Assembly: GCA_903905455.1 (NCBI GenBank)
Contig: CAIVGN010000024.1
Coordinates: 1-64,000, forward strand
DNA from: an uncultured Archangium sp.
GTDB taxonomy: Bacteria > Myxococcota > Myxococcia > Myxococcales > Myxococcaceae
Reading direction: 5' to 3'
Length of the DNA: 64,000 nt
Shown here: piece by piece, positions 53,898-55,542 of the stretch
Layout: the number at the start of each line of letters is the position of its first letter
Position numbering within the stretch: position 1 is the first letter of the stretch
Notes under the pieces: generated by a model
Told to the model about the DNA's origin: nothing
The model's input: the letters and a program-made list of their open reading frames with translations, nothing else
Databases searched by the model: none
Translations under genes and position numbers: made by a program

Positions 53898-53968
53898 TGG
53901 GGCGTCGTCCAAGGGTAGGACATCAGACTTTGACTCTGAGTATCGTGGTTCGAATCCACGCGCCCCAG
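53898..53968 (+). tRNA. tRNA-Gln (anticodon TTG)
   Basis: The cloverleaf reads: acceptor TGGGGCG / CGCCCCA (53898-53904 and 53961-53967), D arm GTCC...GGAC, anticodon arm TCAGA-CTTTGAC-TCTGA with TTG at 53930-53932, and T arm GTGGTTCGAATCCAC. The discriminator is G at 53968. CCA is not encoded. It is the only tRNA seen; no integrase or repeated 3' end is nearby. Confidence 0.96.
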
Positions 53969-54060: not shown

Positions 54061-54585
54061 ATGGCGGTCAGGGAGCTGCAGTTGGTGCCGGTGGGTCCCG
54101 TTCAGGGGACCTTCCTCATGGAACTCGAAGCGCCCATCGCGCAGGTGCTCGGTGTGAGCGCCTACGTGGGCAAGGCGTCGCTCGGGCAACCGACGTTCGC
54201 CTTCAACAAGGATCGAAACCAGTACCACACCACGGCGATCATGCGCCGGCTGCTGACGCTCAAGGACGCCGGCACGCCGCTGATCATCGGGGTGGCGGAC
54301 GTCGATCTCTTCGTGCCCGACTCGCCCTTCGTCTACGGCGAGGCCGACCGCGAGTCGCACGCCGCGGTGATGTCGCTGTGGCGGCTCAAGGGCGAAGGCG
54401 AGGCGTGGAAGCGGCGCACCTTCGTCGAGGCGGTGCACCAGGCCGGGCACCTCATCGGGCTGTCGTATTGCGAAGACGCGCGCTGCGCGATGTACCTCGC
54501 GACGACCATCACCGACGCCGAGCGGCGGCAGCTCCACCTGTGCAACAACTGCCGAAACGAGCTGGTGAAGATTCGAAGAGTTTGA
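54061..54585 (+). CDS. Archaemetzincin-like protein with altered catalytic residue
   Basis: A 174-residue protein; GGGGGAG five bases before the ATG supports the start at 54061. The family signature HEXXHXXGX3C-X4-C-X-M-X17-C-XX-C is nearly complete: VHQAGHLIGLSYC, then EDARCAM, 16 residues, and CNNC. The zinc-binding His residues are H126 and H130, but the general-base Glu is Gln127 (CAG at 54439-54441). The N-terminal half (LELVPVG-type strand, then TTAIMRRLLTLKDAGTPLII-GVADVDLFVPD) is also typical. The fold and metal sites look intact, so it may bind but not hydrolyse peptides, or act by a changed mechanism. Confidence 0.88.
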   Translation: MAVRELQLVPVGPVQGTFLMELEAPIAQVLGVSAYVGKASLGQPTFAFNKDRNQYHTTAIMRRLLTLKDAGTPLIIGVADVDLFVPDSPFVYGEADRESHAAVMSLWRLKGEGEAWKRRTFVEAVHQAGHLIGLSYCEDARCAMYLATTITDAERRQLHLCNNCRNELVKIRRV

Positions 54586-54600
54586 ACGACATTGCGTCCC

Positions 54601-55542
54601 ATGTCCGTGCGCGCCCTGACCGTCGGCCTCCTCTCGCTCTTCGTCCTCTCGGGTTGTGACCTCTTCGGCGGGGGTGGCGGTGGGGGAGGCGGTACCGGCG
54701 GTGGCGGCGGCGCGGCGTTCACCTTCAACAAGGGCTTCACCTTCGTCCGCAAGGACGACCGCAACGTCTACCTCGCCGACGACAGCGACGTGCAGACCAC
54801 GACCACGCTGACCCAGTCGGGCAACGTGCGCACCCCGGCGCTCTCGGTGGACGGCACGCGGGTGGTCTTCGTGCGCGGCGGCACCACCGACTCGGAGCTG
54901 GCCACGGTGGCCACCACCGGCGGCGTGGTCCGCACGGTGCTCGCGGCGACCAGCACGGTGAAGAACTTCAAGACCCCGGTGTTCTCGCCCGACGGCGCGC
55001 GCATCGTCTTCGGCTTCGACGACGGGGCCTCGACGAGCATCGGGCTCATCAACGCCGACGGCACGGGCTTCCAGAAGCTGGCCACCGGCGGCCTGGCGCA
55101 GGCGTTCCCCTCGTTCACCCCCGACGGCGCGGCGGTCATCGTGGGCGCGGGCAGCTTCGGCCTGGGCTACCGGCAGATCGAGCGCATCGCCCTCGGCACC
55201 AACAGCGTGACCAACGTGACCAACGACCTGGGCCTCGAGGTGCAGAGCATCGCCAACCGGCTGCTGGTCTCGCCCGACGGGGTGCACGCGGTGTTCGACG
55301 CGCGCGGGGCCTCGGGGGTGACGCGGCTCTTCCTCATCGACCTCTCGACGAAGGTGGTCACCCAGCTCTACGCGGGCGAGGCGGGCACCAACGACAGCTT
55401 CCCGTGCTGGATGGGGAACGCCGCGGTGGGCTTCTCGTCGGACTCGGGCGGCAACGACAACGTCTACAAGGTGAACCTGCCTTCGAGCACCTCGGCCTCG
55501 CTGTTGGTGCCCAAGGCCATCGAGCCCTGGTACGGGCCGTAA
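54601..55542 (+). CDS. TolB-like beta-propeller lipoprotein
   Basis: A 313-residue lipoprotein; the ATG at 54601 gives lipobox LSGC (Cys 19). A Gly-rich stretch (residues about 23-38) links to a six-bladed propeller with PD40/WD40-like repeats: ALSVDGTRVVFVRGG, VFSPDGARIVFGFDDG, SFTPDGAAVIVGAG and LVSPDGVHAVFDARG. This matches TolB-type periplasmic propellers but with a lipid anchor. It may sense or scaffold envelope components. Confidence 0.87.
   Translation: MSVRALTVGLLSLFVLSGCDLFGGGGGGGGGTGGGGGAAFTFNKGFTFVRKDDRNVYLADDSDVQTTTTLTQSGNVRTPALSVDGTRVVFVRGGTTDSELATVATTGGVVRTVLAATSTVKNFKTPVFSPDGARIVFGFDDGASTSIGLINADGTGFQKLATGGLAQAFPSFTPDGAAVIVGAGSFGLGYRQIERIALGTNSVTNVTNDLGLEVQSIANRLLVSPDGVHAVFDARGASGVTRLFLIDLSTKVVTQLYAGEAGTNDSFPCWMGNAAVGFSSDSGGNDNVYKVNLPSSTSASLLVPKAIEPWYGP

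Follow-up and report, generated by a model that had tools for sequence, protein, structure and literature searches.

The window analysed here, a stretch of 64,000 nucleotides from an uncultured Archangium sp., carries on its forward strand a tRNA-Gln(UUG) (53898..53968, identified by ARAGORN) directly upstream of a gene for a 174 aa protein of the archaemetzincin family (54061..54585, +). This gene runs from an ATG at 54061, which has the purine-rich sequence GGGGGAG immediately 5' of it, to a TGA at 54585. On the same strand, 15 bases after the stop codon, begins a gene for a PD40 beta-propeller lipoprotein (54601..55542, +; Pfam PF07676, lipobox LSGC). The 174 aa protein matches Peptidase_M54 (Pfam PF07998) with 49.6 bits against a cut-off of 24.4, and its motif reads HQAGHLIGLSYCEDARCAM...CNNC, that is, the pattern HQx2Hx2Gx2YCx4CxM. 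By profile, fold and Cys4 site (Cx4CxM...CxxC) it is an M54 archaemetzincin; it lacks two hallmarks of an active peptidase, the Glu of HExxH (here Gln127) and the third-ligand His of HExxHxxGxxH (here Tyr136).

The first of these departures had been picked out in an earlier sequence-only reading of this DNA, and the open reading frame bears it out. The segment H126-Q127-A-G-H130 (54436..54450, +) is an HExxH motif with Gln in place of the catalytic Glu, spelled CAC (54436-54438) for His126 and CAG (54439-54441) for Gln127, with His130 at 54448-54450. That reading had also listed both His, the C-x4-C-x-M and the distal C-x-x-C as retained, and each is indeed there: His126, His130 and the residues of the structural Cys4 zinc site with its Met-turn (Cys137, Cys142, Met144, Cys161 and Cys164; 54469..54552, +). 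Its account of the catalytic site stopped short of the third zinc ligand, however. Metzincins bind their catalytic zinc through the three His of HExxHxxGxxH, the third being position 11 of the motif. In the Archaeoglobus fulgidus archaemetzincin AmzA, His117, His121 and His127 hold the catalytic zinc while Glu118 serves as the base (PMC3427221). Sequence alignment to the solved archaemetzincins (3zvs, 4axq, 2x7m) places Tyr136 (54466..54468, +) opposite His127 of AmzA, so that two active-site positions have changed, not one, and only two of the three catalytic ligands are left. The window gene is thus more degenerate than was first thought.

Since a single base (C for G at 54439) separates Gln from Glu, a sequencing or assembly error could in principle account for Gln127. 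We put the chance of this close to nil: CAG stands at the same place in independent assemblies of sibling species that are 90–94% identical, and Gln is the residue in 58 of the 67 family members compared. These 67 distinct Myxococcaceae orthologues, picked by Tyr or Phe at position 136 and recovered as the same set in a tree built without that column, form one clade with an SH-aLRT support of 95, the only support measure of this 'quick' tree, from which the active-site columns had been removed. Gln is thus near-fixed in the clade, the alternative that all close relatives carry Glu being contradicted by the alignment: besides the 58 Gln, position 127 is Leu in six sequences, His in one and Glu in only two (L017/L045 and L064), which may be holdovers or reversions. 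Position 136 is Tyr in 59 and Phe in eight, and even His126 has become Asn or Thr in two species, while His130, Gly133, the four Cys and Met144 do not vary.

The sister lineages show a different pattern. All 17 of their sequences have His at position 136, with Glu (8), Ala (6), Gly (2) or Gln (1) at position 127, and across the combined 84 sequences Cys137, Cys142, Met144, Cys161 and Cys164 are invariant. On the tree, position 127 must have changed at least 12 times. The simplest course is a single loss of His136, in the ancestor of the Myxococcaceae, and a loss of Glu both in that ancestor and, separately, in the Anaeromyxobacteraceae, where Ala, Gly or Gln took its place. Orthologues of the latter family (L117–L124) show this separate loss of Glu, to Ala or Gly, with the third His kept; in one of them, L124, the second His is lost too.

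These substitutions bear on the earlier proposal that the protein should bind zinc, which fares less well. With the third catalytic ligand replaced by Tyr or Phe in all 67 sequences and the first His also lost in two species, binding of a catalytic zinc by the window protein is doubtful, and we expect the structural Cys4 zinc alone. The sequence-only interpretation is therefore partly supported.

The predicted structure is that of an intact archaemetzincin. An AlphaFold2 model of the protein chain alone, based on 31 orthologues, reached a pLDDT of 93.2 and a pTM of 0.90. Its best matches among solved structures are archaemetzincins (TM about 0.8, Z 21.9–23.5; highest for 2x7m, with TM 0.84 and Z 23.5), whereas other metzincins score a Z of about 14. 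The likeness to AmzA (2x7m, 3zvs, 4axq, 3lmc) extends over the whole predicted fold, the Cys4 site, the Met-turn and the first two His; what the window protein lacks are the equivalents of the catalytic Glu118 and the third ligand His127. Human AMZ1 is a partial parallel, and unlike the window protein it keeps the catalytic Glu. Its third His is replaced too (by Asn, Ser or Thr), and it has been reported as an aminopeptidase, although this activity has been questioned (PMC3427221).

We consider it probable (roughly 0.7) that the product of the window gene is a conserved pseudopeptidase, probably cytosolic, which acts through binding. Its archaemetzincin fold would be held together by the Cys4 zinc, while the peptidase centre would be disabled because Gln has replaced the Glu that acts as general base and Tyr the His that is the third zinc ligand. 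Peptide hydrolysis would then be absent and the protein would act by binding another protein or some other ligand, much as its distant relative CarG binds CarD. Two catalytic positions lost family-wide alongside a retained Cys4 site, Met-turn and predicted fold support this reading, as do the low dN/dS of close pairs, the near-universal retention of the gene and the group-specific conserved residues described below. The varied replacements (Gln, Leu and His; Ala and Gly in the sisters) fit a residue 127 that no longer takes part in any chemistry. The loss of normal hydrolysis, which had been predicted from Gln127, agrees by analogy with AMZ-tk, in which E183Q leaves minimal activity and the third-ligand mutant H192D about 20% (PMC4681839). 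That single-ligand mutants of AMZ-tk keep this much activity also leaves room for a protein that still cuts by unusual chemistry, Tyr136 binding the zinc and some other residue or a water network acting as base, as do the nearly invariant His126 and His130, the Met-turn and the intact predicted fold. We regard such a peptidase as unlikely, since nothing catalytic is fixed at these positions: Tyr gives way to Phe in 8 of the 67 sequences, Gln to Leu or His in seven and His126 to Asn or Thr in two. The old site of the pseudopeptidase may nonetheless keep some role in metal or ligand binding, given that two sequences carry Glu, that His126 and His130 hardly vary and that Gln is much favoured over other replacements.

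Loss of two catalytic residues, repeatedly and by different routes, might instead mark a decaying gene without function. This is very improbable, and the earlier judgement that simple decay is not at work holds. The Cys4 site is intact, the protein search found no internal stops in any orthologue copy, and 36 residues are invariant among 65 orthologous proteins. Purifying selection is seen in dN/dS values of mostly 0.02–0.2 in close orthologue pairs, which alone are informative; distant pairs were set aside because their values are inflated, synonymous sites appearing saturated at this GC content. The gene is moreover retained family-wide: a protein search found an orthologue in almost all Myxococcaceae genomes searched, with loci in named records from Archangium, Myxococcus (with M. 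xanthus AM003), Pyxidicoccus, Hyalangium and Citreicoccus. Three reduced genomes (2.1–2.7 Mb) from a single genus are among the Myxococcaceae in which that search gave no orthologue and matched other M54 proteins only weakly. Ten residues (N49, H56, R62, R63, D96, R97, L131, S135, D139 and R155) are conserved in Glu-bearing and Glu-less orthologues alike but are found in no more than about a quarter of other M54 sequences, which points to a constraint of the group's own, independent of the catalytic Glu.

A non-cutting archaemetzincin is already known from the myxobacteria. In CarG of M. xanthus the catalytic Glu is replaced by Gln, and the protein is reported to lack protease activity (PMC3427221, PMC8156234); it has the motif HQx2Hx2Ex2HCx4CxM, binds two zincs and is coupled to CarD through carD-carG (PMC8156234), carG always lying directly after carD (PMC8156234, PMC9304148). 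It was our first identification of the window gene, taken from PMC3427221, and was ruled out by the published motif and by the genome's own carD-carG locus. The two do resemble each other: both proteins are of M54 type by sequence, similar in length and myxobacterial, and both have Gln in HQxxH, with CarG reported as a non-peptidase. Yet CarG has the third His, with Glu in place of the motif Gly, whereas the window protein has Gly133 and no third His, and the two are only 30% identical over 83 residues. Further, carG adjoins carD, while the window gene lies away from carD, behind tRNA-Gln, in genomes that have CarG as well. The window genome's own carD-carG pair (G000:C166) encodes a CarD of 319 aa with three AT-hooks followed by a CarG of 170 aa. 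No CarD-like open reading frame was found within 6 kb at 62 loci orthologous to the window gene, in contrast to 29 of the CarG-type loci, where one is present, and the CarG and window-gene groups are separate clades (SH-aLRT 98 and 100). That the window gene is simply CarG, with its known CarD partner, in another species is thus extremely improbable, and together the separate locus and clades imply that Myxococcaceae carry two different degenerate archaemetzincins. For the pseudopeptidase proposed here, CarG offers a precedent as to the type of role but no evidence of a shared partner; the partner here is probably not CarD.

The CarG of the window genome (L168, G000:C166:23719-23775) reads MHEVAHTYGLHHC, a complete HExxHxxGxxH, where sibling species read MQEVGH and Myxococcus HQLGHLWEL. 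By its residues this CarG may have regained a possible active site.

The neighbourhood of the window gene is itself conserved. In 59 of 62 orthologous loci, across two families, the gene is immediately preceded on its own strand by the tRNA-Gln(UUG), at a median of 61 bases before the aligned gene start, and no terminator was found between the two genes; the one other tRNA-Gln match found in the window genome has the anticodon CUG. At about 50 of 60 loci the next gene downstream encodes a lipoprotein of the PD40 family. The gap to it, 15 bases in the window, is often about 100 bases elsewhere, which makes an operon less than certain. Anaeromyxobacter and early-branching Myxococcaceae have the gene behind putative dnaN, recF and gyrB genes (read from their open reading frames), probably its old position. 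Its usual neighbours, the tRNA-Gln(UUG) and lipoprotein genes, suggest steady housekeeping expression. The order of tRNA-Gln and archaemetzincin might also reflect a role tied to tRNA-Gln or to translation, for which the breadth of the linkage and several conserved basic residues specific to the orthologous group can be cited. We think this unlikely, as co-transcription for convenience explains the linkage equally well, the protein carries almost no net charge (20 K+R, 19 D+E), and the tRNA is absent at two related loci outside these families. A wider proposal built on the pseudopeptidase is tentative and somewhat less unlikely: these proteins would be a second class of non-catalytic archaemetzincin regulator, independent of CarD and fixed Myxococcaceae-wide, that arose through parallel active-site loss in two sister families, with its expression and perhaps its function coupled to the preceding tRNA-Gln(UUG) gene.

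While the general idea of a non-cutting archaemetzincin is known from CarG, the window lineage is a separate one. The open literature searched gave no description of this paralogue, though the key CarG papers of 2006, 2009 and 2010 may mention it. The archaemetzincin fold has thus apparently turned non-cutting more than once in myxobacteria, in CarG and in the window-gene group, and the coexistence of Glu-bearing and Glu-less members in sister families makes it possible to ask what function survived the loss of catalysis. For the window gene, and for its copy in the model organism M. xanthus as well, an automatic label of 'zinc protease' is probably mistaken.

Relatives of the window genome (L144–L147, L141–L143, L149) also have another M54 group, about 340 aa long and with the motifs HEIGHMFQL.HC or HELGHM.GL.HC, which was not found in the window genome itself. 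Finally, one record titled Comamonas sp. KCTC 72670 (L068, BNCN01000009.1) holds a Myxococcus-type copy of the window gene in a Myxococcus-type neighbourhood; its name is probably wrong.
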